Shown here: piece after piece, positions 8,640 to 59,893 of the stretch
Position numbering within the stretch: position 1 is the first letter of the stretch
Layout: each line of letters begins with the position of its first letter
Assembly (NCBI RefSeq): GCF_026151205.1
Contig: NC_087082.1
Location: forward strand, 4,133,408-4,197,407
Source: Bolinopsis microptera
Lineage: Eukaryota; Ctenophora; Tentaculata; Lobata; Bolinopsidae
Direction of reading: 5' to 3'
Length of the DNA: 64,000 nucleotides
The notes under the pieces: generated by a model
Told to the model about the DNA's origin: nothing
The model's database searches: none
The model's input: the letters and a program-made list of their open reading frames with translations, nothing else
Program-made: the position numbers and the translations under genes

Positions 8640-11240
8640 GAGGAGCACTACCCGAAGGCATTACTCGGCACTAACGCCTTAAAATCTTTAATTACAATCA
8701 AATATAAATATATGCACACAATGTATAAAGTATTAATAATGTATAAAATATGATTATGCTATTAGCAAATTTAAATAGTATTATTAAGAATTTTAAATAA
8801 CTCTTATCTCTTGACATAAATTTAGAACAGCGACACAGGGTCTGAAGAATGCGCGGTGATATTTTTATCTTTTAAAAGTTGTAAATGACAGTGAAATTGC
8901 GCGGTGTCGATAGCATTGTAAAAAATGCTCGAAGATAGTCATATTTTGTTATGAGGTTAAAGTTTTGTTGCTCGTTATTATGATCAACGTATGTTGTACC
9001 AAATTATTTAAATTTCTAAAAGTACGAAATTTGAGTTGTCCCAGTCCTTGTCATCCGGTTTATGTGCTTGTGCAGTAAGCACATGCTTGTTGACTGTAGA
9101 CTTGAATGAATTTAGGAATTTGTCTTGTAGGCAAGTGGTGACATATTTTATGTCCTTGTTAATAATGTTGACTGTTTGGTTATATAACTTAGGCCCAATG
9201 TAAGAAATGCTCTTGTCTGAATTACATAAACGGTTAAATGGTACTGCAAAGAACTCAGGTTCTCTTCTAGGTGCGTTTAAGTTTGAAACAGTGAACATTC
9301 TTATAATATTTGGTGGTGCAGTGTTAGAATAAACTTTGTGCATTAAGCATAATATACATTTAGCTATCACGTTCGGTAAAGCTAATACTTCTAGTTTATT
9401 GAAAATTTCCTTTGTGTGTGAAGGTGTGCTATTCAGATCTTTGTCATAAAAATAGCGGTGGTATTGGTTATCTGCAGCGCGAATGCCCTTTTTCTGGGCC
9501 GAGAAGACTCTTTTAACGGAGTTTAGCGATCTTGTTCCCCAAACTGTGCAGCAGTAGTACAAGCGAGACTGAACAAAGCTGTTGTATATCAACTTGAGTG
9601 CTTTGTTAGGTACTGAGCCTTTGAGTTTGTAGAGAATACCCGCATTTCTAGATACTTTAGTGGCTAAATGTCTAATGTGGTGGGCCCAATTTAGCTTAGT
9701 ATCAATGATCACGCCAAGAAACTTTTCGTGATAACTTTGCTTTAGTCGCTCACCTCCCATGTAGATTTCTATATCCTTAGTTTTCTTATTTGTAAAGATC
9801 ATATATTTAGTTTTGCTAGCATTTAATTTAAGCCCGTTATTAGTAGCCCAATCAATTATCAAAGTCAGAATCTCATTCACCAATGCATTAAGTTGTTCAA
9901 ATGTATCTGTACTTATTATTAGGTTTGCGTCGTCAGCGAAATAAATATGTTTAGCTAAATTACTAATCTGAGGAAGGTCGTTGATGTAGATTATGAACAG
10001 AATTGGTCCGAGAATGGAGCCCTGTGGTACTCCGTAGTTAAGTTTGAGGTGAGAGGACTTGCAGTTGTTGACGCTCACGTATTGCTCTCTATCGGTTAGA
10101 TATGAGTGAAACCAAGATAAAGCCAACCCCCGAACTCCATAGTGCTCAAGTTTTCTCAGAAGAATACTGCTGTCAACCATGTCAAAGGCCTTGCTGTAGT
10201 CCAATAGAAGCAGTGCTGTGACCTGCTTTTTTTCTAGTGCCCTGTGAATATGGTTTTGGGCTTCTAGTAAAGCATGTTCGCAGCTGTGCCCAGCCCGAAA
10301 TCCGTATTGAGAGTCAAATAGGATTTTCTCTGTCTTTAAGTGATCTAATAGTCGCGCTTGCATAATTTTTTCAAAGATTTTTGAGAAACATGAGAGTAGT
10401 GAGATAGGTCGATAGTTTGAAACTTCAGCACGTGACCCACCTTTGTGAAGTGGAACAACTTTGGCGATTTTCAATTTATGCGGAAACTTCCCCTGATGTA
10501 GAGACGCAGAGACTAGGCAGCTAAGCACTGGTGCAAGTATATTGCTCACTTTTTTCAGGGGAAGTATACTCATATCAGAAGTCGACTTAATCTTCAAACC
10601 CTTAACTATTTCAATTATTTCTGATGCGGACGAATCTTCTAGATTCATGCTCCGCTGGCATTTGCTATCTTGAGTTTCTGTTACGATAGTCCTGCCCTCA
10701 GAGCATACGAGTCCATTTTCTCTCTTAAGAGTCTCAGCTATATTGCAGAAATAGTCATTGAAGCTATTCGCAATTTGCTGAGAATCTGTTATCTCGCTCC
10801 CATTATAGTTAATTTTGTTTATCTTAATTTTGCCTTTTTTCTTTCTGTTTAACAAGTTATTAACCATTTGCCATTGTTTTCTGCTGTCGCTAGAATATTT
10901 TGTAAAGTACGCGTTGTAATATTTGCTTTTGGCCTTATCCACGTGTTTATTCACAAATTTCTTCATTTTCTTGTACCTAATATCATTTTCAGTGGTCGGG
11001 TTTGTGACAAAATCTTCATAAAATTTATTTTTGCGATCACATGCGCACCGTAACCATTCTTGGATCCACGGCTTTGTGTTTTTACGGCGGCCTGGTTTAC
11101 TCTTTTTTGCCTTAATTGGGAAATTTCGGTCGTATAGTTCACTATATTTTTTATCGAAAGCCTCAAATTTTTCATCTACAGAATCATAGTTATTAACCAA
11201 GTTCCAGTCTACCGCAGAAAGGTGAAGTACCTAATCAAGG
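8640..11240 (-). mobile_element. LINE E: non-LTR retrotransposon, 5'-truncated
   Basis: The minus-strand element carries a long RT frame. The 3' UTR (9007 down to about 8640) ends in the motif TGCCGAGTAATGCCTTCGGG, also found at 3366-3400. The endonuclease region is absent, and the 5' edge at about 11236-11240 is where the frame stops matching a LINE. It sits between the two proposed pentraxin exons. I found no certain target-site duplication. Confidence 0.75.
9008..11240 (-). CDS. Reverse transcriptase of LINE E (no endonuclease)
   Basis: An intact frame of 730 residues from the first ATG (11200), with about 13 more open codons upstream. It starts in the linker between endonuclease and RT. 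RT motifs in order: SNYRPISLLSCFSKIFEKI (about 263-281), LLDYSKAFDMVD (about 339), YGVPQGSILGPILFIIYINDL (about 390), the catalytic YFADDAN (about 420), and FLGVIIDTKLNW (about 495). A thumb/C-terminal domain without RNase H follows, as in CR1/Jockey-type elements. Frame and catalytic aspartates are intact, so the copy is young or selected. Without the endonuclease it should be immobile by itself. It is a different family from LINEs A-D. Confidence 0.85.
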
Positions 11241-15109: not shown

Positions 15110-15446
15110 AGTGGAGCAGAATTGAAGGAAACTAGAAGTAGATTCTACTACATGATGAGGTTGGATTGGAGTTGATTAGCTATAATAGCCAAACAGTACT
15201 GGAGAGAGCACAACTTATGTTAAGACCGGAATCCGGGCTTAATCCCGATCCCTAATCCCGGTCCCGGTCTTAATACCGGTCACGGCACTTTTTCCAGTCC
15301 CAGTCTCGGCCAAAAAAGTGGTCCCGGTCGAGCCTTGGCTTTAACGAGATGGAAGCAACAAGAGAGATCGTCAGATGTATAAATTTGGGGATAAGACAAG
15401 ATAGCTGGAAGGAGCTTCTGAAACTGAATTGTGTTGCATAAATATT
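15110..15446 (-). repeat. Right arm of the large foldback, inner part
   Basis: Reverse complement of 13070-13335, with an extra block of about 115 bp (15218-15335) made of imperfect CCGG/CCCGGTC repeats. It is separated from the outer part of the arm by LINE C and shares the 7-bp target duplication AAATATT (15440-15446 and 19295-19301). Confidence 0.75.
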
Positions 15447-18400
15447 GATTGAAATAAATTTTCGTGCACATACAGAATGAATGGTTAATAATTTAATAAA
15501 TATGTAGACCAAGCTCTGTGCACGGGATGCTTCCTGGAAGAATCCAGTTCTTTTAGCGGGGCACCCTACCTAAAGCCAAATTGAGATATAATAACCATAT
15601 TCCTAGAGAAATAATCAGAAATCGAATACCAATCAAATAATATGATATATATGAGTAGTAACCATATTTACTATGCAAAATGCCCCAACCACATAGTGTA
15701 AATTTATATAGAGTTCAAATTCCATATCATCATTAAACCTCAATACCTAGTCAATATAATAGCCCAAGCAAAATGAAATAACTTCTTATATACCTTACTG
15801 TCATACTACAAATTAATTAAACATTTGAAATCTGTTGACCAGAGAATAAATTTCTAAGCCTAATGCAAGTGAAATAATTTAGATGCAATAATGAATGCCT
15901 AATGTGAGTATCATTTGTCAATGTCCTTGTAAAAAAGTCTGTACAAGAGATATGAGTAACTAATATAGAAGAAAAAACAGGAAGTTGTCGTCTGTTGTAA
16001 AATAAATAAAATATCTAGAATATAAATTAGAATATAAAATAACATTCAGTCAATGTGTCGTCAATAAACTGTACAATTATCAAATGTTAAAACTGGGTGA
16101 TACAGTCACCAAAAAAAAATAATAAGTATGATAAGTTAATAAATTAAATGTGGTCTATAAAACTACCACTAAGTATAATAGGTCAATAAATTAAAAGTGG
16201 TTTATAAAACTACCACTGTGGGAACCCCTTCTCCAGTTAAAACATGTCAGTCATGTGCAAAATCAATCAGAATGGTAAGGTGGTAAAAAAGGGAATATCT
16301 TTTCGATACATCAATTATGTATGCCTCAGATTTAAAAGAATTAGAAGTTACTTAGTTATCGGCGACTATGATTGCAGTGTAAAATTTGTCATATGAATTG
16401 TCGACGGTATAATTAGGGTCTGTTGTTATAGATGATAGTAGCTGTTTCTTATACGAATCACTAAAGCTTTTAACATCGGGCAGATTTCGTAGATCTGTTG
16501 GAACATTATTCCAACATTTTGCCCCCAAGTATTGAAAGTTTTTATGTGATGTTGATCTATTGACATAAAGGTTGCAGCTTTCGCCGCTCCTACTACCTCC
16601 TGATATGTAACTAAATTTGTTCATAAAGTTTGTAGGACAATTGTCATGGATGATTCTAAACATATAATTTGACAGATGGAGTTGTCGTCTAAGATGGAGT
16701 GGTAACCATTTCATGTCTCTATAAACATTAAGGCTGCTCTCTGTTTTTGGAACGTTGAGAGCTATTTTGGCTACCTTTTTGTACAGAGTGTCAAGTTCAG
16801 CAAGTTTTGTCTTGCCAGCTCTACAATAGATCGTGTCTAAATAATCGAATTGTGGCAACATGAGTGCATTGGCAAACATTTTCCTATATTTAATGGGTAG
16901 CAGTGCTTTACTTCTATACATGGCACCAATTCTCTTCATGACCTTCCTAATAATATAATCTACATGGCTTTTGAAGTTTAATTTACTATCTAGAATGAGG
17001 CCAAGATATTTTGTCTCTTTGCACTCCTTGATTGTGAAAGTTACCTCATTACACTCAATGGTTATTTCATCATGTTGGTCAACAGAATCAAACAATAGGA
17101 ATTCAGTCTTCTTTTCATTGAGTGATAATTTATTAACACTGAGCCATTTAAAGATTGTCATAAGTTCTATTTTCATGTTTATAAATGTGCTTCTGCAGGT
17201 TTGATCAAAGAATAGTGCACCATCATCTGCAAATAGAAAGGGCTTAGATAGGTTACAGGCATAAATGATGTCATTTATGAAGATACTAAATAATATAGGC
17301 CCAATGATGCTTCCTTGTGGTACACCACTCAGAACTTCTAAAAATGAGCTTAGATTGCCATTGATCCTAGTGCATTGATATCTACAAGATAAGAAGTTCT
17401 TAAACCAGGTTAAAGCAATGCCACCAATTCCATAATATGCCAATTTTTGAAGCAATATTTCATGATTCACTGTGTCAAAGGCCTTCTTAAGATCAAGAAA
17501 GATGATTCCTGGTTTATAAGACTTAGATTTACTCATATATATTTCGTCCATCAGATCGTACATCAGATAAGTTGTGGAGTGATTTTTCCGAAAGCCATAT
17601 TGATGCCGGATGAAAAGTTTGTTCTCTTCCATGTAATCAGTGAGTTGCTTGCCGACAAAGTATTCTATAAGTTTTCCTACAAGTGGAAGGATGGATATTG
17701 GCCTGTAATTATTAGGATCATCTTTCATTCCTGCCTTATGGATGGGAGTTACTCTAGCTTTTTTACAAAGGGTTGGTACAACACCTGTGTTAAGGCTCAG
17801 ATTGACAATGTGGGTCAGTGGCTCAACTATGTGTGGTACAGCTTGCTTAAGTAAAAATAGAGGCACATTGTCATATGAGGCCTTGTCATTCTTGAGCGTT
17901 TCGACATACATTAGGATATCAGTTTCATTTATTTCTTGGAATCTATCAAATGAGATATTAGAAGTTCTAGGAGGTAAAAAATCAGTAAAACTAACTCTTT
18001 CAATATTGGGGGCCTGATTTTGTAATCTTGATCCAACATTTGCAAAATGAAAGTTAAATAGCTCAGGATCATTCTCATTGATAGTTTGACAATTAGTTGT
18101 ACCAGGGGTCATATTTGATGCCAGTTTGATAGTTTTCCATATCCCTTTCTGATCATTCTTGGCACTTTTAACTTGTAGATCATCGATTACATTAGCCTTT
18201 TTGCAGGTTTTAGCTAATTTATTTCTAATATTTCTCTGAATCTTGTAGCAATCCCAGGCCTCATTACACTTTATACATTTGCTACATGTACCACATTTAT
18301 TGCAATTTCCATTGTCTCTCTTATCCTTCTTTTTACGGAATTTCTTTAGAAGAAAATGTGTATGATTAATGGCATATAAAAGTTCAGTAGAAGGTTTATG

Positions 18401-19294
18401 TATGAACTTTTCATGCCTTTCTATGGTCTTGCAAGGGAAGAAGGTTGCATATGCCTGTTCAATATGATGACAAAGGCCAGCTGTGATAGCTTCAACATCT
18501 GTACTTTCCAATAGTGGACTGTAATCAGAACAGGTGTCTAGATAGTCTAAGAATTGTTTAACATTACGTTTACAATGATTTCTAATTTCAACCTTCTCAA
18601 ATTTAGGAGCTATAGGTACTTTACAATCTATCTCACACATAATAGCTTGATGATCTCCAATACGTTCATCAAGAACAGAAGATTGGACAAAATCTGCATA
18701 ACAGTTAGTGAATATTACATCAATAGTAGTCTGGGTAACATTGTCTCCACGTTTAGCAACTCTAGTTATCCCTTGAATGGTTTGAACTAGATTGTAACAT
18801 CTCAAGGTCATATCTAATTTTTTGTACTGGGTGGATGAGATATTATTCTGGTCAATGTTTATATCCCCAATCCAGATAACCTTTTTCCCATTCAATTTTT
18901 TCATGCAAAAATGAATGTATTCAATAAAGTTATCAACACTGCAATAATTTCCAGAGCGATAGAAGCAGCAAACATTGATCTTGCTATTCTTAAGCTTCAC
19001 CCATAATGCTTCAATGTTATCAAGCTTACTATCCATAACTAATTCTGTGTAAGCTAGTTTTTTGTTTATCATTAAGCCACAACCACCCCTAGAACTTTTT
19101 GGCCTGTCGCATCGCATAAGGTTGAAGGAGGAAGGAATATTTATGGTGTCTGTGTCAATAGTATCATTAAGATTCATCTCATTTAGGGAAAGTATGTCTA
19201 ATTTATGATCTCTAATAAGTTGGGAAAGTTCATTACTTTTAGCTAAATTGAGAAGCCCTCCTTGAATGTTACAATGACCAATGCAGAGGTTGTG
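15447..19294 (-). mobile_element. LINE C: CR1-like retrotransposon, 3.85 kb, 7-bp TSD
   Basis: Flanked by perfect AAATATT duplications (15440-15446, 19295-19301), so both ends are exact. The 3' end, on the minus strand, finishes in ...GAAAATTTATTTCAATC without poly(A). The 5' end is truncated at the first residues of the endonuclease. A 0.9-kb 3' UTR (15447-16351) is shared nearly unchanged with 50372-51143, 59894-60794 and, inverted, 63332-63668. Confidence 0.92.
16352..19294 (-). CDS. Endonuclease-reverse transcriptase (ORF2) of LINE C
   Basis: One open frame of 980 codons from the element's 5' edge to the TAG/TAA at 16352; the first ATG is at 19177. AP endonuclease: IGHCNIQGG near the start, LSLNEMN, GGCGLMINK, VCCFYRSGN, WIGDINID (about 145), TIDVIFTN, IGDHQAIMCEI. 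A cysteine cluster in the linker reads CNKCGTCSKCIKC. RT: NYRPISILPLVGKLIEYFVG, LDLKKAFDTVNHE, SGVPQGSIIGPILFSIFIND, FADDGALFFD (about 687), YLGLILDSKLNF. Catalytic residues are intact, but the N-terminal end of the protein and any ORF1 are lost, so this copy is dead despite its clean frame. Confidence 0.9.
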   Translation of the reverse strand, partial: HNLCIGHCNIQGGLLNLAKSNELSQLIRDHKLDILSLNEMNLNDTIDTDTINIPSSFNLMRCDRPKSSRGGCGLMINKKLAYTELVMDSKLDNIEALWVKLKNSKINVCCFYRSGNYCSVDNFIEYIHFCMKKLNGKKVIWIGDINIDQNNISSTQYKKLDMTLRCYNLVQTIQGITRVAKRGDNVTQTTIDVIFTNCYADFVQSSVLDERIGDHQAIMCEIDCKVPIAPKFEKVEIRNHCKRNVKQFLDYLDTCSDYSPLLESTDVEAITAGLCHHIEQAYATFFPCKTIERHEKFIHKPSTELLYAINHTHFLLKKFRKKKDKRDNGNCNKCGTCSKCIKCNEAWDCYKIQRNIRNKLAKTCKKANVIDDLQVKSAKNDQKGIWKTIKLASNMTPGTTNCQTINENDPELFNFHFANVGSRLQNQAPNIERVSFTDFLPPRTSNISFDRFQEINETDILMYVETLKNDKASYDNVPLFLLKQAVPHIVEPLTHIVNLSLNTGVVPTLCKKARVTPIHKAGMKDDPNNYRPISILPLVGKLIEYFVGKQLTDYMEENKLFIRHQYGFRKNHSTTYLMYDLMDEIYMSKSKSYKPGIIFLDLKKAFDTVNHEILLQKLAYYGIGGIALTWFKNFLSCRYQCTRINGNLSSFLEVLSGVPQGSIIGPILFSIFINDIIYACNLSKPFLFADDGALFFDQTCRSTFINMKIELMTIFKWLSVNKLSLNEKKTEFLLFDSVDQHDEITIECNEVTFTIKECKETKYLGLILDSKLNFKSHVDYIIRKVMKRIGAMYRSKALLPIKYRKMFANALMLPQFDYLDTIYCRAGKTKLAELDTLYKKVAKIALNVPKTESSLNVYRDMKWLPLHLRRQLHLSNYMFRIIHDNCPTNFMNKFSYISGGSRSGESCNLYVNRSTSHKNFQYLGAKCWNNVPTDLRNLPDVKSFSDSYKKQLLSSITTDPNYTVDNSYDKFYTAIIVADN

Positions 19295-20255
19295 AAATAT
19301 TATCTGAATGTGTTCATGCTGAACAGTTTGCTGTGCTGCAAGTAAAGTGTCTGTAAGACTTTTTTAGCCCGGGATACCAAAATTAAGTACATGTTTGATG
19401 TTACTATTTTAGGATGCACGAAAGTTAAAACAGTTTTTAATGAATATCTCCAAAACTAAGCACTAAACCCTATGTTGCTTTATATCTTGTATGTAAATGT
19501 GGCCTTTGCAGTTAGTTTGAGCTAAAAGAGAGGCCCCTACAACGTTCAGAAGCCGAGATACAAAAGTTATATATTTGCGCCTGAGGGTAATTTAGAAATT
19601 CCCCCCTAGGGTTGCATTGGAACTACTGATAGAAATTGTGTACCTTATCAATTCTGATCCAGAATGACCATACAAAGGACCTGGTTTCTAGAAGAGTTGT
19701 AGACACCAAACTGCATACTCGATTTCAATTAGCTTCTAGAGTAGATTTTTCACTCGCTCCAGTGAAAATCAGTTTTTATGGATTTTGTCCAAAAGTAAGC
19801 ATTTTGGGCCTTTATGACCTTTATAGTGTCAATACAAACATGTGCATTGCGGTCAATTTAAGCCAAATTTTGAGCCTCTAAGACTTTCAGAAGCTGAGAT
19901 ACAAATTTGATGAAATTTGTGCCTACGCCTGAGCTTAAAATTAGTTTTTTGCAGATATCTCGGAAACAAACAATTTTAGACCATACATTGATTAATAAGT
20001 TGTATATAAATGCGGACATTGCAGTAATTTTAAGCTAAAAATGAAGTCTCTATGACCTTCAGCAGCCGAAATACGAAAATCCCGTATATGCGACTGAGGG
20101 TAATTTAGAAAATTTGCCATGTAGGGTTGTCTCTAGCGATACAAATTGCGCACCTAAACGATTTTGGTTTAGGATGACCTAACAAACAACCCTTTGTTGT
20201 CAGAAATCGTGGACATCGAATTGCACACTCAACTACACACTGCTACTAGAGTATG
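19295..20255 (-). repeat. Right arm of the large foldback, outer part
   Basis: 19329-20255 is the reverse complement of 11766-12692. 19295-19328 matches the inverse of 13043-13075. The arm carries the same internal satellite-like motifs as the left arm. Outside 20255 and 11766 the symmetry stops abruptly. Confidence 0.85.
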
Positions 20256-27437: not shown

Positions 27438-46676
<19,239 letters not shown>

Positions 46677-48740: not shown

Positions 48741-49189
48741 TTAATAGTTGTAATTCATTCATGAGTTGTAATTCATGAGTACTCATTCATGAGTAGAGTA
48801 AATTGTTGCTATGCAGGGCTACGACCTTGGACCTGGAAAATTTGGCATCGTCATTCGTCAATCGATGCCTATAACGTTTAAAATATTGGTTGTTTTGAAA
48901 TAAAGTTTAGTTTGTTTGGCGGCCAGCTACAAACTTTAAATATTAAAATTGCAATAGTTGGAGGGTCAATTTTTCCCGATACGAAGTGACGCAAAAATAA
49001 TTGATAATATAATTCAATAACATTGCTCATACAGAAAAGTTTTTTGGTCCCATTATATATTAACAGTTAACGTTTTTTGGTAATTGGTATAAAGGTCGTG
49101 CTAATTTAAAAAAAAAGAAAAAAAGGGGGGACCCCCAACCCATGTAGCTGAGACACCTCACAGCAAGTAGACCAAGTAGACTTTCCCCA
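48741..49189. other. Spacer before LINE A
   Basis: No gene recognised. A GGGGGGACCCCC block at 49126 lies close to the LINE A 5' boundary. Confidence 0.35.
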
Positions 49190-50050
49190 TCCCAAAGCTA
49201 CCTAGCTATGCATTCTGATGATGAATCCACGATTCTTGCCAACTAAAAAATTGTCACAATCTCCATTGGTGCAACTAGAACTGTGCTTTTTGAGTCCAAA
49301 CAAGACAGAGACCAAGATCCTGTAAAGCTTGATGTGAAGTCTAACTCACTTTACACCATGACAAGGTCTTCACAAAATTGGTACCGCCACGGTGTGCCAA
49401 AATTATCTGATGATACCTCAACAGAGGAGAGATTTTCGATCACCTTCAGATCTCTCAGCCAGTCTCGACGAAGCATCGTTTTAATCGGTGATTCGAATAC
49501 CAAAGATGTCAACTTTGGGGATGGTACAGGTAAAGTTGGTCATTCCTTCCCTGGTAAACGAGTAAAGGCTGCCCGTGTCAAAGACATCAATCCGCACCTG
49601 TGTGCTGGATTCTCCAACGCTTTCCTTATGTGTGGCACCAACGATCTACGCTGCGAAAACGTAAAAAATGTCTCAGATATTCACGAGGCAGTGTCAACAC
49701 TGAAGAATAAACTAACGGAAATACGTCAATTGTGTCCACTTACTAACATTTTTGTTGTACCTGTTTTACCATCAAGAATCCATGAAATGAATAAAAATAT
49801 AATGCTCTACAACAACTTGGTACAGGAGATGATAAAGAACTGTTTTCCTAATATTTGGTTTCAGGGTATGTATGGTTTTTTAGATAACAATAAGCTATTA
49901 TCTGTTAAGTTCACTAGGGGTAACGACATGATTCACTTAGGAAGTAGAGGTTTAGCTAAGTTTGTAAGCCACATGAAAAACTGTGTGTTTCTGAAGGAAA
50001 AGGCGTCTAGGGAGTCAGCACAGAGGGTTGGATCCACTGGTCCAACCTAA
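49190..50050 (+). pseudogene. LINE A ORF1: AlkB-like dioxygenase plus SGNH esterase, decayed
   Basis: The frame reads SYLAMHSDDES (HxD iron ligands at 49211-49219), has a TAA at 49244-49246, then VTISIGATRTVLFES, MTRSSQNWYRHGVPK (distal His) and RFSITFR (R-x5-R, 2-oxoglutarate arginine). The esterase follows: IGDSN, CGTNDLR, PVLPSR and DMIHLG (D-x-x-H). It ends in a TAA at 50048-50050. The N-terminal part of the dioxygenase is missing (5' truncation at about 49190). It is homologous to 51680-52757 but clearly diverged, so the domain pair is a feature of the family, not of one copy. Confidence 0.82.
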
Positions 50051-50063
50051 CCGACACATTACT

Positions 50064-50371
50064 ATGATCATGAAATTAATTAAGGAGGTCTGTGAGCCAT
50101 GCTCAAGGCCCATCAACATTGGGCAGCCCCTACTAGAATGTGAAGCCTGTCGGACAGCTATTCATACTAAATGTTTTAAAGTAGCAGGTTTCTGCCCCAC
50201 CAATGGTCTATGGGTATGTAAGGTTTGTTCACTGAACGTGATACCACGCTACAACCCCTTCTCTGGGATGATTAGTGATGGTGGTGATAAATTCTACGAT
50301 GATGAAGGTGGATGTGATGACGAAACTATTCAAAAAATTTCGAATGTTCTAGACCAATGTCAGAGCTACTT
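50064..50371 (+). pseudogene. LINE A ORF2, 5' part: PHD finger
   Basis: From ATG 50064: EVCEPCSRPINIGQPLLECE, ACRTAIHTKCF, WVCKVC gives the C2..C2..HxxC..CxxC spacing of a compact PHD finger. RYNPF and a KISNVLDQCQSY helix follow, aligning with LINE B. It is cut at 50371 by a LINE 3' end and resumes at 51144. Confidence 0.8.
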
Positions 50372-51143
50372 GATTGAAATAAATTTTCGTGCACATACAG
50401 AATGAATGGTTAATAATTTAATATATATGTAGACCAAGGTCTGTGCACGGGATGCTTCCTGGAAGAATCCAGTTCTTTTAGCGGGGCACCCTACCTAAAG
50501 CCAAATTGAGATATAATAATCATATTCCTAAGAAATAATCAGAAATCGAATACCAATCAAATAATAAGATATATAGGAGTAGTAACCATATTTACTATGC
50601 AAAATGCCCCAACCACATAGTGTAAATTTATATAGAATTCAAATTCCATATCATCATTAAACCTCAATACCTAGTCAATATAATAGCCCAAGCAAAATTA
50701 AATAACTTCTTATATACCTTACTGTCATACTACAAATTAATTAAACATTTGAAATCTGTTGACCAGAGAATAAATTCTAAGCCTAATGCAAGTGAAACAA
50801 TTTAGATGCAATAATGAATGCCTAATGTGAGTATCATTTGTCAATGTCCTTGTAAAAAAGTCTGTACAAGAGATATGAGTAACTAATATAGAAGAAAAAA
50901 CAGGAAGTTGTCGTCTGTTGTAAAATAAATAAAATATCTAGAATATAAATTAGAATATAAAATAACATTCAGTCAATGTGTCGTCAATAAACTGTACAAT
51001 TATCAAATGTTAAAACTGGGTGATACAGTCACCAAAAATAAATAGTTAAGTTAATAAATTAAATGTGGTCTATAAAACTACCACTAAGTATAATAGGTCA
51101 ATAAATTAAAAGTGGTTTATAAAACTACCACTGTGGGAACCCC
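50372..51143 (-). mobile_element. 5'-truncated LINE (family of C/D), 3' UTR only
   Basis: Starts GATTGAAATAAATTTTCGTG exactly as at 15447 and 59894, and runs through the same 3' UTR to GTGGGAACCCC. It interrupts the LINE A ORF2 between the PHD and endonuclease parts. No coding region. Target duplication unclear. Confidence 0.85.
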
Positions 51144-51665
51144 ACAGCTGATCTTAATAGGGTAGTCAAGGAGCTTCAAAACTCATGTAACCTTTCATCC
51201 ACACACTCAAAATTCACATCCTACTTTGTCAACTTAGATGGTAACAAAACCAACTTCGATTGTCTTAACGTTGAACTCAAACGAATTGAACTAAATTTCT
51301 CTGTAATTGGTATCGCTGAAACAAACACAGATGAACCTCTTAAAGAACTATACAGAATACCGCAATACAACAGTTTTTATCAGGTCACTCAGGAAAACAA
51401 GCTGAAAGGGACTGGTGTTGCCCTCTATGTAGCAAATCACCTTAATGCAGAAGTCATAGAAAATTTTGGCTACTGCACGCCTGATAGTGAATCAATCTTT
51501 GTTAAGATCACTCAATCATCCAGCAAGCTCACACTCATCTCAGGGGTCATCTATCGCCCTCCAAATGGTGACATTCATAATTTCCTTAAGTCATTTGATC
51601 ACATATGTAAACTCCTCCCTAAATCTGGTGTACGTATAATGGGGGACTTTAATGTTGACCTTCTT
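51144..51665 (+). pseudogene. LINE A ORF2: first half of the AP endonuclease
   Basis: Open frame reading FVNLDGNKTNFD, FSVIGIAETNTD (metal-binding E), GTGVALYVANH, SGVIYRPPNGD, MGDFNVDLLK, all standard APE-type endonuclease blocks. It runs without a stop straight into the inserted LINE B ORF1. The other half of the endonuclease resumes at 57466. Confidence 0.85.
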
Positions 51666-52757
51666 AAAGTGAATGGTGACGCTGGTCATGGCAACAATAA
51701 GAAAACCGTGGAGATCCCTGATAAAATTGCTGCACTTGTCCTGAAAATCAATGAGGAGTTCTGTGCAGAAGGAAACCCTGTAATGAATAGCGTGTTGATC
51801 AACCGCTATGAAGAAGGCGAGGGTTATCTGCCTGAACATTCAGACAATGAACCGGTGATACATCCAGAGTCTAGCATATTGACTCTTTCCATTGGAGGTG
51901 AATGCAAAGTCCTCTTCACTGAAATGAACAACCCAGTTCACACGCACAAGTGTACTCCAAGATCAGTTTACAGGATGACCAGAAGGAGTCAGGCTCACTA
52001 CAAGCACTCTATCCAGAAGGGGTCAGTCACTGGTGCAGTACGATATAGTTTCACCTTCAGATCAATAGATGGAAAGAATCGTGCCAGTACTTGTATCTTC
52101 TCTGATTCAAATGGAGCAGGTATGAAATTTGGAGAGGATCACAAAAGGAGCTTTGGTAAGTGGCTGCCTGGTCGGAATGTTTGGACTCCTACAATAGATG
52201 ACATTAACCCATATCTTGCATGTGGATACAAGAACATTGTTATTATGTGTGGTATAAATGATGTTAGAAGACCATCTGTTAAATCTCAGCGTGAAATTTT
52301 TGCTATATTTAGTCATCTAGAATTCAAGATTGAGCAAATTCAAGAGGCCAATCCAACTGCCCAAGTATTTCTTTGTCCTCTTTTACCAACTAGAAATGCT
52401 GATTTAAATAGGAAAGTTCTTTACTTTATAGAACTTATTCGTCGTGAGCTACTCCCCAAAAACTTTGGTGTCCAGTTCGTTGATGGCTTTGATGACTTCC
52501 TTGACAATAACACTGGCTTACTTTGCCTAACCTTGTCCAGGGAGTTTGACAGATATGGCCGAACGGATTACCTGCACCTTAATTGGAAGGGAGTGGCCAA
52601 ACTTGCTACTTTAATCCGTAATACTGTCCTTGTTAGGATGCATGGAGGGACTGATAGGAGGAAGAGGGGGAGGAGGGACGGTAGAGCTGGTTCAACACTT
52701 TATTCTGATGCCGCCAGAGAACAGCCTCGTGTTGAAGGCTATCAGCCTCCAACATGA
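51666..52757 (+). CDS. LINE B ORF1: AlkB-like 2OG-Fe(II) dioxygenase fused to SGNH/GDSL esterase
   Basis: The frame is open from LINE A (ATG at 51639; numbering from there). Dioxygenase, about 24-143: NSVLINRYEEGEGYLPEHSD, with Fe ligands H67-x-D69, then LTLSIGG, distal H123 in HYKHS, and R135-x5-R141 in RYSFTFR. This is the full AlkB signature HxD...H...RxxxxxR. Esterase, about 150-330: FSDSN (Ser157), GR (about 178), CGINDV (Asn207) and DYLHLNW (D310-x2-H313), the four SGNH blocks. A basic linker ends the protein. The TGA overlaps the ORF2 start as ATGA, suggesting termination-reinitiation. An esterase ORF1 is known in CR1-like LINEs; the dioxygenase may act on alkylated template RNA or cDNA (inference). 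Confidence 0.9.
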   Translation, partial: KVNGDAGHGNNKKTVEIPDKIAALVLKINEEFCAEGNPVMNSVLINRYEEGEGYLPEHSDNEPVIHPESSILTLSIGGECKVLFTEMNNPVHTHKCTPRSVYRMTRRSQAHYKHSIQKGSVTGAVRYSFTFRSIDGKNRASTCIFSDSNGAGMKFGEDHKRSFGKWLPGRNVWTPTIDDINPYLACGYKNIVIMCGINDVRRPSVKSQREIFAIFSHLEFKIEQIQEANPTAQVFLCPLLPTRNADLNRKVLYFIELIRRELLPKNFGVQFVDGFDDFLDNNTGLLCLTLSREFDRYGRTDYLHLNWKGVAKLATLIRNTVLVRMHGGTDRRKRGRRDGRAGSTLYSDAAREQPRVEGYQPPT

Positions 52758-55700
52758 ATGTTCTTAAAAAAGAGGTCTGTGCCCACTGTTTAAAAAGTAT
52801 TTACTTAGGTCAATCTATAATTGAATGCTATCACTGTAATTGTCCCATTCACTCTAGATGTTTTAACACCAGTGACAAACAAAATAAAAAAGTTGACTTG
52901 TACTGCAATAATTGTCTCCACCTAGCAGTAAACCGTTATAACCCATTTAAGCTTCTGAATGATGACAATGATGACAACACTGATGCAGATGATGTAATAC
53001 GTAAAATCTCTGATGTACTTGAAAGCTGTGACTCATATTCTGTAAAAGACATAAACCGCACCTTTGCTAACGAATTACAAGTGCAAAACTCACTAATATT
53101 TCAAAATCTTGATGGCAACAATTCAAACTTTGACTCGCTGGCAATTGAAATAGCTAGGTTTACTAACAAATTCTCTGTAATTGGTCTTGCTGAAACGAAT
53201 GTAGGCCCTGAAATGAAAAACTTGTACGAACTCACAGGCTATGAGAGCTTCTATCAAGATACCTTCGACTCGAAAGTAAAAGGCTCAGGAGTAGCTCTAT
53301 ATGTCCTGAACTCCTTCAATGCTGTCAAAAATAACAACCTTTCCCAAGTGACAGAAAATCTAGAAACCCTCTTTGTAACTATAGGTAGTCTAGGAAACTC
53401 TACTTCTATAGGAGTAATATACCGCCCTCCAAGTGGCAATGCTGAGCAAGCTCTCCAAGAATTGTCGTCAATACTTGATAAAGCACCAAAACATACACAC
53501 ATTGCAGGTGATTTTAACATTAATCTCCATAGTAACCACAGTAGCATTATTGCACAGTATGAAGATGTCCTATTTAGTAGAGGCTTCTTTCCATTGATAT
53601 CATTAGCAACTCATGAAAAGCCTGGATGTAATGCCTCGTGCATCGACAACATCATTACAAATGACCTAGACTCTGTTACTGCCTCTGGAGTCATAACTGA
53701 TCACATATCTCATCACCTCCCTATATTTACAATATTTGACTGGGAAATTAGCAAGACCAAAAATATTCACAAGCACACCCAATACTATGACTATTGTAAA
53801 TCAAACACTGATAAATTTGCTGAAGTCTTGGGTAACAAACTAGACAATGAACCAATTATAGATTTTACTAACTTTCATGATATCTTTAAAAACAGCATTG
53901 ACGAAACCTGCAAACTAGCTGTACCCAAAACCACTAAGCGCACTATGCAGAACAACCCATGGATTACTGGCGGGATTATAGCCTCAGTAAACCACTGCCA
54001 TGGGCTGTATGATGACTGGGCGAAAGTCAGGAAAGTTAAGTGTAAACAAGGCGAAACTGACACAAAAGGGGGCACATGCGTGTGTTCTATCTGCTGTAAT
54101 AAAAGAAACCGTTATGATGACTACAAAGAATATAGAAAGGCTCTAAAAAAGGTTCGTAAAAAAGCTGTATCTGAATATTATTCTGACAAGTTTCTTGAAA
54201 CTCAGGGAAATTCCAAGAAAACCTGGGAACTGATAAATAAAATTCGTGGCAAACAGAAACGTGATATCAGACCTATATTTACCATAGACAATGAAAAGAT
54301 AACTGATCGCAGAGTTATAGCTAATGAATTCAATAAGTATTTTGTATCCCTAGCACCTAACCTTAATGCAGCCTACACAGAACTAGGAGAGATACAAATA
54401 AATCAGCTTCCAAGTTTCTGTGACTTCTTACCTAAATCGAATACAGCTAATATATATCTACATGACTGCTCACCTGAGGAGGTGGCTAAGATCATATCGG
54501 AACTTAAGAATGGCAAGGCTAGCGACATACCAGTACATATAGTAAAGGCAGTATCAGGCAAAATTAGCCCACTACTATCGGTATTGTACAACGAATGTAT
54601 GCAACAGGGATTTTTTCCAGACGACCTAAAAGTAGGTAAAATAAGTCCAATATATAAGAAAGAAAATGCTGAGCTTCTTGAAAATTACAGGCCTATCTCA
54701 ACCTTAGCAATATTCGGTAAAATACTTGAAAAAATCATATTCTCCAGGCTTTACAGTTTCTTCCAGTCGCAAGGATTATTATATGAAAATCAATATGGCT
54801 TTAGAAAAAATCACTCGACAAGCCATGCACTCAACTTTTCTGTCGACTACATTGAAAAATCTTTAAGAGATAAAAATCACGTACTAGGCATCTTCATTGA
54901 TTTAAGTAAAGCTTTTGACACAATCTGTCATGATAAACTGCTTAAAAAACTGAATGATTATGGAATTCGAGGGACTGCAAATAAATTGATAGCCAGTTAC
55001 CTTTCTAATAGACAGCAATATGTTTCAGTACTTGGAGAAGAATCCGAAAAACTGTCTGTAATATTTGGTGTTCCTCAGGGGTCAGTATTAGGTCCCTTGC
55101 TTTTCATTATCTACATCAATGAAATATATAGAGTATCAGACCTAGGTAAGTTTATACTTTTTGCCGATGACACCAACATATTTGTTGTAGATAAATGTAT
55201 AAAAACACTTTACTGCAAAGCTAATAAAATTCTTAAACTTGTTCATCAGTATATGAAGAGTAACTTGCTGCATATCAACATAAAGAAATGTTGCTATATC
55301 CACTTTAAGCCGAACTGTAGAAATGAACCAGATTCAAACACCAATGAATTAGAACTGACACTAAATAATATAGTAATTAAAAAGGTGGAGGAAACTAAGT
55401 TTCTTGGAGTCATTATTGACCAAAAACTGAACTGGGATGCTCACTTAAGAGCGTTAAACCGTAAATTGAAATGTGAGATAGGTAGACTATGTGGAATTAG
55501 ACGCTGTGTACCTAAAAAACTATATAAGGACCTGTACCACACCCTTTTTGAATCACACCTATGTTATGGAATATCTGTTTGGGGAGGTGTATCAAATAAT
55601 AAACTAGAAGCCATATTTAAAACACAAAAGAAATGCATAAGAATTCTCTTTGGTGATAATGATGCATACTTCAATAAGTTCAAAACATGTGCCAGAGTAA

Positions 55701-56137
55701 GGCCTATCACTAGGGATAAGACCGGTAAAGTTATCAAGCAGATGTTAGGCAAAGATTTCTTTGAACTAGAACACAGTAAACCAATCTGTAACGAGTATAA
55801 CTTCCTGACTGTCCACAATCTTCATAAGTTGCACTGTTTACTGGAAATGTTCAAAATTAATAAGTTCCAATCACCAATCTCAATGTTCTCTTTATTCAAC
55901 AGGTCACCAAGACGAGACAACTACTTCATCCCACCCACTCCATCCTCACTATTCATCTATCAATCAACTAGTATTTGGAATCACTGCCGTAAGTCAACAA
56001 GTGAAATAGACTTCTCCACTCCCATCAGTATATTCAAGAATAATCTTAAGAAATCTTTGTTAGAACTACAGTCTAAATATGACCGACAACTTTGGTGCAG
56101 TTACAACTTTGATGCAAATGAATTATCATTGAAATAG
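52754..56137 (+). CDS. LINE B ORF2: PHD finger, AP endonuclease, reverse transcriptase
   Basis: Intact 1127-residue protein. PHD-like zinc finger about 9-57 (CAHC, ECYHCNCPIHSRC, YCNNC). Endonuclease about 110-330: IGLAETN, GSGVALYV, GVIYRPPSG, AGDFNINL (about 251), CIDNIITN, DHISHHLPI. Cysteine cluster about 435-450 (CVCSICC). RT about 600-900: NYRPISTL (about 644), LSKAFDTI (about 718), GVPQGSVLGPLLFIIYIN (about 771), FADDTN (about 802), FLGVIIDQKLNW. C-terminal domain without RNase H. All catalytic residues are present and no frame is broken, so this may be recently active. Confidence 0.93.
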   Translation: MNVLKKEVCAHCLKSIYLGQSIIECYHCNCPIHSRCFNTSDKQNKKVDLYCNNCLHLAVNRYNPFKLLNDDNDDNTDADDVIRKISDVLESCDSYSVKDINRTFANELQVQNSLIFQNLDGNNSNFDSLAIEIARFTNKFSVIGLAETNVGPEMKNLYELTGYESFYQDTFDSKVKGSGVALYVLNSFNAVKNNNLSQVTENLETLFVTIGSLGNSTSIGVIYRPPSGNAEQALQELSSILDKAPKHTHIAGDFNINLHSNHSSIIAQYEDVLFSRGFFPLISLATHEKPGCNASCIDNIITNDLDSVTASGVITDHISHHLPIFTIFDWEISKTKNIHKHTQYYDYCKSNTDKFAEVLGNKLDNEPIIDFTNFHDIFKNSIDETCKLAVPKTTKRTMQNNPWITGGIIASVNHCHGLYDDWAKVRKVKCKQGETDTKGGTCVCSICCNKRNRYDDYKEYRKALKKVRKKAVSEYYSDKFLETQGNSKKTWELINKIRGKQKRDIRPIFTIDNEKITDRRVIANEFNKYFVSLAPNLNAAYTELGEIQINQLPSFCDFLPKSNTANIYLHDCSPEEVAKIISELKNGKASDIPVHIVKAVSGKISPLLSVLYNECMQQGFFPDDLKVGKISPIYKKENAELLENYRPISTLAIFGKILEKIIFSRLYSFFQSQGLLYENQYGFRKNHSTSHALNFSVDYIEKSLRDKNHVLGIFIDLSKAFDTICHDKLLKKLNDYGIRGTANKLIASYLSNRQQYVSVLGEESEKLSVIFGVPQGSVLGPLLFIIYINEIYRVSDLGKFILFADDTNIFVVDKCIKTLYCKANKILKLVHQYMKSNLLHINIKKCCYIHFKPNCRNEPDSNTNELELTLNNIVIKKVEETKFLGVIIDQKLNWDAHLRALNRKLKCEIGRLCGIRRCVPKKLYKDLYHTLFESHLCYGISVWGGVSNNKLEAIFKTQKKCIRILFGDNDAYFNKFKTCARVRPITRDKTGKVIKQMLGKDFFELEHSKPICNEYNFLTVHNLHKLHCLLEMFKINKFQSPISMFSLFNRSPRRDNYFIPPTPSSLFIYQSTSIWNHCRKSTSEIDFSTPISIFKNNLKKSLLELQSKYDRQLWCSYNFDANELSLK

Positions 56138-57465
56138 GTTGATTTAGTAAACATAATCACATGAGTAAACCACGGTGTTATTGCAAAAAACCATGACAAG
56201 GGTATCAGACCTATATTGATCTAAGAGACGACACAAAACGAATCATCATACAACAAATTTTAAAATCCTGCGGCACAGGATCCTGTTGTTTTCCTACTCT
56301 ACCTCTCCCAAACCCCTCTCTCCTTCTCCTCTCTTCAGGTTTATTCTTCAATTTTTTTAAATTAGATAGCAGATGTATTTTCTTTTAAATGAAGTAATGG
56401 CATTATACATTGATTGGTATCGTATGTATGTTGTGTATAGTGTTTGCTGACTGGGTATATGCTATATATTTTGAGGCTCACGACGTCTCGTCCCATGGGT
56501 GGAGTTGTAGGCTGAGTATGTGTTCTCCTTACTTCGTATGGGGAAACATTGACAGGTTTGCCTTAGCCTTTGGGACGAGTGTTTGCCCACCGGGGATCCA
56601 AAAATATGATTATCATGGACATTACTTTAACACATAAACTAATCAAACGACTTGAATGATTCCAGAAAATTTTACTAACTGCATTTAGCTAGTTTATAGT
56701 AAATACACACGATCGCAGAATAGAGGAGCACAATTGGGTTCTTTGTTCTGCGACTGTGTTTCCTCGGTGGGCCGACAGGTTTTTTGTTGTGTAGTAGTGC
56801 TGGGGAAAAAAAAAAAACGCTTTAACTTTCAATGAGAGTACAAATTTTTAATTCTTGACCTTAGTGCCACAGTTTCTGTGGTAAAAACAAATTTATAGTT
56901 AAACGTTATATAATGTAGAAGGGCATGATTTACTCACATCACTAAGCATCTGGATGGATAATTAGCACACAAGGATAAACTGACCTTTAAACATGACCAC
57001 CAACTATACCACGTAACCATAGCTCCGAAATAAATATATTGCTCTACATAGAAACATCTGGCCTGATCCTATCACATTGTGGTCCCCAGGGGTTCGGTAA
57101 AGCCCTTACAGGCAACTGGGTCCTTTTACCAGCCACAATAAAATTGGTCATGCCAGTACTGTCATAAACTGTAACCAACTATTTAAAAATTAGACATCTT
57201 TAGCTAAATTTTAAATTTTAAGTCATAGAGCAATCTTCTTAATTTTAAAATTTTTAAGAATTATATTTTACCCTAACTATGATGTGGTGGCATTTCATAC
57301 TTAACTAAATTTCAACTTTGAAAGTAAATAGATTATTAGTGACAACAAATTATAGTTTAAGACATCCATTCTGCATTGTGTTTCCAATATTAGAATTTAT
57401 GATATGTATTGATTGAATAATTGGTAATAAATTTAACTTTTGTTTTATTAAAAACTTTTGTTTTA
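56138..57465 (+). other. LINE B 3' UTR
   Basis: Non-coding tail with poly(A)-rich run at 56804, the block TGGTCCCCAGGGGTTCGGTA at 57080 (related to 21165), and an 18-bp direct repeat at the very end. Confidence 0.65.
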
Positions 57466-59893
57466 TTAACTATACTCTTTTTGAAGAATGCTTATTTAGA
57501 AATGGTTTCGCTCCTGTTATTTCGATACCTACACATGAGAGACCAAATTGCAAACCATCTTGTATTGACAACATCCTCACAAATGACCCTGGTAACTGTG
57601 TTCTCTCAGGTTGTATAACAGATAGAATTGGTGAACATGCTCCAACATTTGAATTCACTGACATCGAATTCGAGGTTGGTCCAAAAAGTGAAAAACATGT
57701 CCAGTACTACGACTTCAGCAATGCCAACCTTAATAAATTCCTAACCCTACTGAACACTGACCTCTCAAAGCTCCACACTTCTCATGAATTCTCGGATTTT
57801 ACTAAATTATTTGATCATGTACTTGATTCAACATGCAAACTTGTAAAGCCAAAAACTACTAAACGGAATCCTATCAATAACCCCTGGATAACAGATAGTA
57901 TTTCATCAGCCGTTGAAAAAAAAACATGAATTAAAAGATGCCTGGATTACATCTAAAACTAAGGCAAACCCTGATGGAAACCAGGATCTCGAGCAAACCT
58001 TCAAGGTATACCGAAGGATCCTCAAATCTGTAATTAACACTGCAAAAAATACTTACTCTTGCAACCAAATCATAGAAAATAAGCACGACCGTAAGAAGAC
58101 ATGGCAAATCATTAATGAACTCAGAGGGAAGTGTAAAAAGAGTATCAAACCCTCATTTATAATCGACAACAGAAAAATAACAGATAGAAGGGTTATTGCA
58201 AACGAGTTCAACAAATACTTTAACTCCATTGCCTCCACTCTAAATGAATCAATAGCTGACCTGCCTATACAGGCTTCTGAATTTTCAACATTTGAAGACT
58301 ACCTCCTGCCATCCAACAACAACTCTATATTTCTAACTGACTGTTCACATACTGAGCTCATGGAAATAATTTCCAAGTTGGAAAATGGCAAATCTAGTGA
58401 TATCCCAATCCGTGTGATCAAAAAGTCAGCTCATCTAATCTGCCCTGTTTTAGCCCAACATTTCAACAAACTGATGATGAGCGGGGTATTTCCCGATGTA
58501 TTGAAAGTTGGGAAAGTTACTCCTATATCTAAGAAAGGAAACGAAGAGGATGTAGGAAACTACAGACCTGTCTCTACTCTGCCCATATTTGGTAAGATAT
58601 TTGAAAAGGTGATATACAGCCGTATCTATAGTTTCGCTTTGTCACAAAATATCCTTGATGAAAACCAATTTGGCTTCCGCAAGTCCCATTCTACTAGCCA
58701 TGCTGTTAACTACTCTGTTAGGATTATTGAAGAGAGCATAAAAAAACGAAACCATGTTCTAGGAATATTTATAGATTTGAGTAAAGCATTTGATACAATC
58801 GACCATAGTACACTCCTAACAAAACTAGATAGGTATGGAATAAGAGGCAATGCAAACTGTCTCATTAAAAGCTACTTATCAAATAGAACACAGTACACAG
58901 AAGTCCTCAATGAAAAATCCGAAAACCTCATCATTAAATATGGAGTTCCACAAGGCTCTGTTTTGGGACCGCTCCTTTTTCTTCTATACATAAATGATAT
59001 TTCCAATTCCTCAGATTTAGGAACTTTCATACTATTTGCCGACGACACCAACATTTTTATTAATGGCAAAACTGTAGAAGAAGCTTATGAGAAAAGCAAC
59101 AAATTGCTAAGCTGTATAAAAAAGTATATGATCCTTAACAAACTACACATCAACATGTCAAAGTGCTGTTATTGGTTATATGCATTTTAAACCAAAGGCT
59201 AGTAACCCAGTAAAATTTCCAGATTCGCTTCAACTCCATATTGATGGCTTTCCGATTAAAAAAACCAAAGCAACAAAGTTTCTTGGAGTTGTTATTGATG
59301 AACAGCTTTCCTGGGGGCCTCATATAACAGCACTTAAACGAAAGTTAAACTATGCCTCTGCCACCTTAAATAGAATTAGGGACTCTGTACCGAAGGAACT
59401 CCATAAAGACCTATACCACACACTATTTGAATCCCACCTTACATATTGTATCTCAGTTTGGGGTGATGCAGCACTCTTTAGGACAGCAAGTATTTGGTTG
59501 TCTCAGAAGCACTGCGTACGGGTCCTCTTTGGTGATAAAGAGGTTGCTCTATCCAGAGCCCTTGCGCTTGCAGTAGCGCGCGCCCGCCTCACTTTTCTTG
59601 ACTTGTGAAACAAGCGCGCCCGCAGTGGCGCGAAAGCACATGGTTAGGTGAAATAAAGAGGCATACCTAAACAAGTTCCTAACATGTGCAAGAACAAGAG
59701 AGTTTGACAGCCAGGCACTTGACCATACATTCTTCTAACTAGAGCACTGTAAACCACTTTTCAAGCAACAAAACATCCTGGCTTTCAAAAATTTATATAC
59801 ATATCACACTTTTATGGAAGTTTTTAAAATACTGAAATTAAGATGCCCAGCATCACTGCAACAGCATTATCAGCCATCTTCTAGAAAGGATTT
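57466..59893 (+). pseudogene. LINE A ORF2, second part: endonuclease C terminus and RT, broken
   Basis: Resumes with YTLFEECLFRNGF, CIDNILTND, GEHAPTFEF (endonuclease end). A +1 frameshift lies in an A-run at about 57916-57924. RT motifs: NYRPVSTLPIFGKIFEKVIY, DLSKAFDTIDH, GVPQGSVLGPLLFLLYIND, FADDTNIF. A second frameshift near 59172 (KCCY to MHFKPKA) and the 110-bp MITE at 59543 follow. The frame ends at 59893, where LINE D is inserted. The remaining C terminus would lie beyond 64000. Confidence 0.88.
59543..59652 (+). mobile_element. GC-rich 110-bp MITE, copy iv, with 8-bp TSD
   Basis: Inserted in the LINE A RT gene between GGTGATAAAGAG and GCATACC. ATAAAGAG is duplicated (59535-59542 and 59653-59660). 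Removing it restores the reading GDKEAYLNKF. The 8-bp duplication and imperfect inverted ends (CTATCCAGAGCCC / CTAACCATGTGC) suggest a hAT-type non-autonomous element, though the ends are not classical. Confidence 0.85.

Follow-up and report, generated by a model that had tools for sequence, protein, structure and literature searches.

We analysed a 64,000-nt stretch of the genome of the ctenophore Bolinopsis microptera (assembly GCF_026151205.1, contig NC_087082.1, positions 4,133,408-4,197,407, forward strand), hereafter the window, whose positions serve as coordinates below. Two long interspersed nuclear elements (LINEs) in it, copies A and B, encode an AlkB-type 2-oxoglutarate (2OG)/Fe(II) dioxygenase domain in their first open reading frame (ORF1), directly 5′ of an SGNH esterase, and this ORF1 is followed by an ORF2 with a PHD-like zinc finger, an endonuclease and a reverse transcriptase (RT). 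This arrangement, which a preliminary description covering 49190..56137 had read from the letters, was confirmed by Pfam matches and alignment. As judged from sequence and predicted fold, the AlkB domain in the LINE ORF1 is real, and the elements are endonuclease-RT (non-LTR) LINEs, CR1-like in domain make-up, whose AlkB core active-site residues have been retained by selection.

An AlkB domain in the ORF1 of two nested LINEs

The stop-to-stop open frames at 49247-50047 and 51123-52754 each contain a Pfam AlkB match and then an in-frame SGNH domain, with ORF2 downstream. The AlkB profile PF13532 (gathering score 31.2) matched copy B with 46.8 bits (E = 5.3e-12) and copy A with 40 bits (E = 6.2e-10), and it scored 50-84 bits in the 12 LINE ORF1s scanned. 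The best sequence match of copy B in the PDB was ALKBH2 (E = 7.5e-5). AlphaFold2, when given the AlkB part of window copy B together with 28 further AlkB rows, predicted a double-stranded beta-helix (mean pLDDT 86.4, pTM 0.78), the fold that the preliminary description had put forward as a check on the domain. In a Foldseek comparison with the PDB, the top 20 rows were all ALKBH2, ALKBH8 or ALKBH3 (TMq 0.69-0.78); E. coli AlkB and ALKBH6 came next, and the first ALKBH5 row stood at rank 33. The best 20 viral fold matches comprised seven named RNA-virus proteins, eight giant-virus proteins and five unnamed ones.

The HxD motif, the His and the Rx5R motif were present in all LINE, Helitron, host and bacterial rows covering that stretch, and in six diverged ORF1s of the same genome the invariant columns took in the AlkB Fe ligands and both arginines as well as the PHD Cys/His pattern. 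The family-wide loss of HxD/H/R residues, for which the preliminary description had proposed to look, was not seen. In copy B itself, the AlkB residues (H67, D69, H123, R135 and R141) and SGNH residues (S157, G178, N207, D310 and H313) numbered there from an ATG at 51639 are all present. That ATG, however, is not the start of copy B, because it and the codons up to 51695 belong to the endonuclease of copy A, and copy B lacks an ORF1 start codon.

Self-comparison of the window and comparison with relatives showed that copy B is nested within the endonuclease of copy A. Both copies extend beyond the span 49190..56137: B reaches 57467 and A resumes to 59890. Later insertions have broken copy A into pieces at 49178-50369, 51139-51695, 57468-59543 and 59653-59890, the interrupters being the 3′ end of another LINE (50370-51138) and copy B (51696-57467). 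The junctions of B fall between adjacent codons of A's endonuclease, and the relative L055 has the uninterrupted site. No clean target-site duplication was found for B at its two junctions, which share at most 3 bases (AAC) as read from the printed flanks. Both copies are 5′-truncated: in B the N-terminal half of ORF1 is missing, and A starts at 49178 and carries an in-frame stop at 49244 within its AlkB part. Identity between A and B by tblastn was 33% in ORF1, 37% in the finger, 45% in the endonuclease and 58% in the RT in the main piece. The features are as follows.

49178..50047 (+): remainder of copy A ORF1, the C-terminal part of AlkB (~49193-49459) fused to SGNH (~49463-49984); start taken from the match to L055
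50048-50050 (+): stop codon TAA of copy A ORF1
50064..50369 (+): start of copy A ORF2 with PHD-like zinc finger (Pfam below cut-off)
50370..51138 (-): 3′ end of a LINE of family F3, inserted into A; the DNA is that of window 15445-16228
51139..51695 (+): N-terminal part of copy A endonuclease, containing ATG 51639 (from comparison with relatives)
51696..57467 (+): copy B, a 5′-truncated LINE within A's endonuclease (uninterrupted site in L055)
51696..52061 (+): copy B AlkB, 2OG-Fe(II) dioxygenase core, N-terminal part truncated away (Pfam, AlphaFold2, PDB matches)
52074..52634 (+): copy B SGNH (GDSL-type) esterase, in one ORF with AlkB (PF13472 E = 5.6e-6, below gathering; invariant S, G, N, D, H)
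52755-52757 (+): stop codon TGA of copy B ORF1
52754..56137 (+): copy B ORF2 with zinc finger (by homology to A), endonuclease and RT (RVT_1 ~54656-55417); start codon overlapping the stop of ORF1
57435..57469 (+): 17-18-base repeat, present twice, at the 3′ end of B
57468..59543 (+): continuation of copy A with the C-terminal part of the endonuclease and the RT, frameshifted
59544-59652: short repeat between pieces of copy A
59653..59890 (+): copy A, further part of ORF2

The layout that copy B has lost is seen in its relative L077, where a complete B ORF1 (716 aa from stop to stop) carries a PHD match at 62-109 (23.8 bits), AlkB at 352-485 and SGNH at 535-662, and is followed by an ORF2 of 1133 aa. 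Window B, L077 and L078 share an overlap of the ORF2 start codon with the ORF1 stop, which the remaining listed families lack. In copy B, ORF2 matched RVT_1 with E = 5.6e-36 and Exo_endo_phos with E = 6.6e-4, the latter below gathering. The finger of A's ORF2 matched PHD and other zinc-finger profiles of Pfam, all below their cut-offs; that of window B's ORF2 had no Pfam match and aligned to the A finger with E = 2.8e-12, and its relative L077 gave a weak C1 match.

AlkB-bearing families and Helitron carriers

The whole genome (264.65 Mb, 232 contigs) was searched for related sequences. The PF13532 search gave 151 matches, with 150 of the 587 first-look candidates scored, and the search with B's ORF1 scored 112 of 925, so that the counts are lower bounds. 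At least 250 non-overlapping places encode an AlkB-like stretch (150 PF13532 rows and 100 B-query rows), a few of them being host genes. Most B-query matches (97 of 112) span the stretch from the AlkB HxD through the SGNH Asp/His, and 96 of the 100 that span the AlkB motifs lack an in-frame stop. Copies with both frames open are present elsewhere in the genome.

We inspected 25 loci, comprising 20 PF13532 rows picked non-randomly for varied frame length, four B-query rows and one relative of the W1 family. AlkB, the SGNH region and RT occurred in this order on one strand of a LINE at 16 of the 25, with queries for SGNH that included each family's own C-terminal part and hence locate the region without proving its fold. 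Six further loci are Helitron-type and three are probable host genes. The last three, L049 (234 aa), L050 (505 aa) and L051 (296 aa), are AlkB frames without element domains, probably host ALKBH genes.

Besides L077 of the B family, the LINE loci fall into family A (L055, L065, L066), relatives of B (46-52%; L078, L079, L080), F6 (L067), W1 (L081), F2 (L052, L054), F3 (L068) and F4/F5 (L057, L064, L059, L062). The domain is present in ORF1s just 27-43% identical to that of B, and in more distant LINE groups. The PHD profile PF00628 scored 16.8-23.8 bits wherever it matched, below its gathering score of 24, and the Pfam scan gave no PF00628 match for the ORF1 of L079, the ORF2 of window B, F2, F3, F4 or L062. 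SGNH matches to PF00657/PF13472 were below gathering in A and B; the catalytic Ser, Gly, Asn, Asp and His are invariant in A, B, the B relatives and F6. In F2, F3 and W1 the Pfam E values for SGNH were 8e-6 to 1e-3, all below gathering, and in F4/F5 the domain is weak (E = 0.057 in L062, no match in L057), being otherwise a motif reading. Exo_endo_phos was above gathering in F2, F3, F6 and W1. Together with Pfam and the alignment, these findings support the earlier claim of a LINE with AlkB and SGNH in its ORF1.

W1 was considered as an AlkB-free relative and rejected, because L081 carries the AlkB-SGNH pair and 11 of the 45 W1 RT rows compared (at least 95% identity) have a listed AlkB row within 6.5 kb. 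Rows at 60-65% identity point to another W1-like LINE family, whose ORF2 is about 1231 aa long.

The Helitron-type loci (L053, L056, L058, L060, L061 and L063) encode SGNH and AlkB upstream of a Rep-helicase, which was within the fetched stretch at five of the six; L063 shows SGNH and AlkB only. In L053, SGNH, AlkB, DUF6570, Helitron_like_N (3.7e-22) and PIF1 (1.3e-20) share one frame of 2459 aa. The Fe ligands of the Helitron AlkB are intact, and the order is SGNH then AlkB, the reverse of that in the LINEs. Nine of the 41 Helitron_like_N matches, at eight loci, have one of the listed AlkB rows within 7 kb, indicating that at least some Helitrons in this genome carry AlkB. Of two Helitron proteins compared with a profile of LINE SGNHs, L056 matched (E = 9e-6, six-sequence database) and L053 did not; F4 was likewise unmatched.

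We then compared trees of the two domains. In the RT tree of the genome's own LINEs, rooted at the midpoint, the order was F4/F5, F2/F3, W1, F6, A and the B group, with a program warning that the long F2/F3 and F4/F5 branches meet. The AlkB tree gave the same order for F2/F3, W1, F6, A and the B group (bootstrap 86-97, most forks unstarred); the Helitron sequences fell among those of the LINEs, and a starred branch (99/95) had F4/F5 on the side of the cellular sequences. The similar orders would fit a long joint history of the domain and the RT. All AlkBs of transposable elements were grouped with a support of 67/37 in another AlkB tree and 73/89 in the present one, and a single origin of them all is compatible with the tree; F4/F5 may have acquired theirs separately. 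Holding the LINE AlkBs together without the Helitron was weakly rejected by the approximately unbiased test (p-AU 0.036), and not when F4/F5 was left out (p-AU 0.269), so that a transfer could have run either way between LINE and Helitron. From these sequences, the simplest account would be an old capture of AlkB, which diversified with the RT, and then one later exchange with a Helitron.

A wider reading, to which we give somewhat less than even weight, is that an AlkB of one origin, marked by R-x-S-x-T-x-R, would be a shared module of eukaryotic mobile elements. In four or more deep LINE groups it would be an old part of ORF1, vertically inherited and paired with SGNH; it would have passed from LINEs into an SGNH-bearing Helitron, and would serve RNA- and DNA-replicating elements alike as a self-encoded counter to base methylation.

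Selection on the domain and its proposed role

The preliminary description had also proposed dN/dS across copies as a check on AlkB, and the ratios proved to be well below 1. Over the 36 pairs formed by nine B copies (the window copy and L070-L077), the ratio of nonsynonymous to synonymous change was 0.033 in AlkB and 0.078 in SGNH. Between window B and L077, AlkB differs by 14 synonymous and two nonsynonymous changes, and ORF2 differences fall 18, 13 and 91 on the three codon positions. Similarly, L057 compared with L059 and L062 gave an AlkB dN/dS of 0.04-0.05 and a value of 0.15-0.16 in the C-terminal SGNH region, with an ORF2 dN/dS of 0.07 between L057 and L062. The AlkB differences between A and B fall 52, 44 and 75 on the codon positions (p 0.0002 by phase permutation); the synonymous sites are saturated. 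Helitron copies compared with L053 gave 0.14-0.29 in AlkB and 0.33-0.56 in the linker.

These ratios bear on the idea that AlkB is a passenger, either a piece of a host gene caught by chance in one family or a decayed pseudogene. Both window copies are 5′-truncated and A has an in-frame stop, as a decayed piece might; nevertheless, the domain occurs, mostly in open frames, in ORF1s as distant from B as described above and in still more distant LINE groups, and the nonsynonymous to synonymous ratios are well below 1, so that we regard this idea as refuted for the families examined.

On balance we favour the reading that AlkB works in the ORF1 particle as an active dealkylase of nucleic acid, clearing RT-blocking methyl lesions from the element RNA. 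In such a particle, AlkB would bind the element RNA (or the cDNA or target DNA) and remove base methyl groups, most likely lesions of the Watson-Crick face that stop reverse transcriptase, such as 1-methyladenine (m1A) and 3-methylcytosine (m3C), and a template cleared of lesions could be copied at full length. Contact of the particle with chromatin would be made by the PHD finger, and contact with lipid or membrane by SGNH. The elements may in this way repair or un-mark nucleic acid themselves.

Several observations weigh against a dealkylase of this kind. The arginine motif reads R-x-S-x-T-x-R in the LINE and Helitron rows, compared with R-x-N-x-T-x-R in three host and six bacterial rows. 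The N-x-Y pair, retained in A, B, B46, B48, F2, F4, F5 and the Helitron rows, is altered to T-x-Y in F3 and W1, to S-x-Y in F6 and to N-x-F in B52. These positions contact 2OG in classical AlkB proteins. FTO also has Ser in place of the Asn of R-x-N-x-T-x-R, and for that reason the altered motif is not treated as excluding membership in the AlkB/ALKBH family. The profile match begins at 47-94 in the LINE copies except F4/F5 (13-14), and at 10-43 in host genes, so that these LINE copies have a shortened or diverged lid upstream. In the A family, AlkB (0.20-0.23) is less constrained than SGNH (0.14-0.17) and ORF2 (0.12-0.13). Moreover, the choice of copies by protein score biases the nonsynonymous to synonymous ratios downward. 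Finally, sequence cannot give the substrate.

The substrate is where two alternatives part from the RNA-repair reading. AlkB might erase N6-methyladenine (m6A) or another regulatory mark from the element RNA and so escape host control, which we consider unlikely. The Ser in place of Asn, which is also seen in FTO, would fit such an eraser. In addition, the AlkB of an orchid Gypsy element is an RNA m6A demethylase in vitro, for which a role of this kind has been proposed (PMC9289625). For human L1, however, the m6A writer METTL3 helps the element and ALKBH5 suppresses it (PMC7873242). Among solved structures, moreover, the best fold matches are to ALKBH2, ALKBH8 and ALKBH3, several of which were solved with m1A or m3C, and ALKBH5 comes only far down the ranking.

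Alternatively, AlkB might act on DNA together with the PHD fingers, by repairing or demethylating target DNA or cDNA or by removing a DNA mark from the element's own promoter; this we hold to be less likely again. The best solved-structure matches are of ALKBH2 bound to double-stranded DNA, and a Helitron-type DNA transposon of the same genome has a related AlkB. Helitrons are not known to have an RNA replication intermediate, and the Helitron AlkB suggests a benefit beyond RNA templates. A fold match to ALKBH2 nevertheless does not fix the substrate, and the AlkBs of RNA-virus polyproteins match comparably.

Lower still in our estimate is a role in binding only, in which the AlkB fold would replace the RNA recognition motif or zinc knuckles of other ORF1 proteins and catalysis would be irrelevant. 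Some secondary 2OG contacts do differ between families, and the esterase ORF1 proteins of Repbase are described as lacking any known structural RNA-binding domain (PMC3905857). If binding were all that mattered, some of the three Fe ligands and two arginines should have been lost, but these are invariant across the diverged families. On any of these readings, a conserved AlkB could fill this RNA-binding gap of esterase-type ORF1 proteins and would offer a concrete explanation of their contact with nucleic acid.

Known systems and other features of the window

CR1 elements with esterase and PHD domains were reportedly described by Kapitonov and Jurka in 2003. The present elements resemble the LINEs of the CR1 and L2 groups of the Jockey superfamily, with ORF1 types III/IV (Metcalfe and Casane 2014, PMC4120745; Schneider 2013, PMC3905857): both have two ORFs, the second encoding an APE-type endonuclease and RT, show PHD-like fingers in several families and carry SGNH at the C-terminus of ORF1. 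They differ in that AlkB lies directly before the esterase in the present elements, whose RT was placed only among the LINEs of this genome. Esterase-type ORF1 was restricted to vertebrate groups in the one source (PMC4120745) and assigned to many animal phyla in the other (PMC3905857).

The preliminary description had called AlkB in a LINE ORF1 non-standard. In the main text of the Jockey-superfamily ORF1 survey (PMC4120745), the terms AlkB, dioxygenase, 2OG and oxygenase do not occur and its table has no such type, with subgroups L2_1 and CR1_2 unclassified there; AlkB, dioxygenase and oxygenase are likewise absent from the main text of the esterase structure paper (PMC3905857). By title, a strongly limited literature search, run without Repbase or Dfam, gave just the orchid Gypsy case of AlkB inside an element. 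Given these two texts and that limited search, it is likely, though not established, that AlkB in a LINE ORF1 has not been described before.

ALKBH2, ALKBH3 and E. coli AlkB share with the LINE domain the predicted fold and the HxD...H...Rx5R set, copy B having the N-x-Y pair as well; they differ in that the present AlkB lies inside a retrotransposon ORF1, has R-x-S-x-T-x-R and, except in F4/F5, has a shorter or diverged N-terminal part. Positive-strand RNA viruses of plants carry AlkB, which has been read as RNA repair, as the preliminary description had remarked (Flexiviridae; PMC544882). Those viruses are likewise replicating RNA elements with an AlkB of their own and close predicted folds, but their domain sits in a replicase polyprotein and not in an esterase-type ORF1, and it was compared here by predicted fold. 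The orchid Gypsy element, whose AlkB demethylates RNA in vitro, is also a retrotransposon with an AlkB domain. This AlkB, however, is ALKBH5-like, stands in a separate ORF2 of a long terminal repeat element and is reported to be a recent acquisition in Phalaenopsis (PMC9289625), whereas here it is an ORF1 domain of many LINE families. If the LINE AlkB is active, many retrotransposon families of a single genome would be able to reverse base methylation directly, which would add to the RNA-virus and orchid Gypsy cases.

No related element was found in IMG/VR (queries B ORF1, B ORF2, A1 and A6) or GTDB (A1), where such matches as there were came from generic SGNH and AlkB genes of bacteria or phages. 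In tblastn comparisons with phage and plasmid records (1 and 22 records, respectively), 21 rows among the matches listed cover the AlkB part only.

All four LINE families recognised in the window (A, B, W1 and F3) are AlkB-carrying families. The window copies of W1 and F3 retain only ORF2 and 3′ parts.

9011..11230 (-): ORF2 piece of W1, the third LINE family; its relative L081 has an AlkB-SGNH ORF1
15444..19297 (-): ORF2 and 3′ end of F3, the fourth LINE family; its relative L068 has an AlkB-SGNH ORF1

Beside the F3 LINE, a 3′-end fragment of the A family lies at 14123-15102 (-), into which F3 may have inserted. The 3′ ends of A and B are in repeats of about 18 bases (L065 and L066 among A), and those of F2 (L052, L054) in a tandem repeat of about 6 bases, ATTCTA-like. 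Long simple-repeat arrays at 40722-44897 are read as SLSLSL/ERERER frames.

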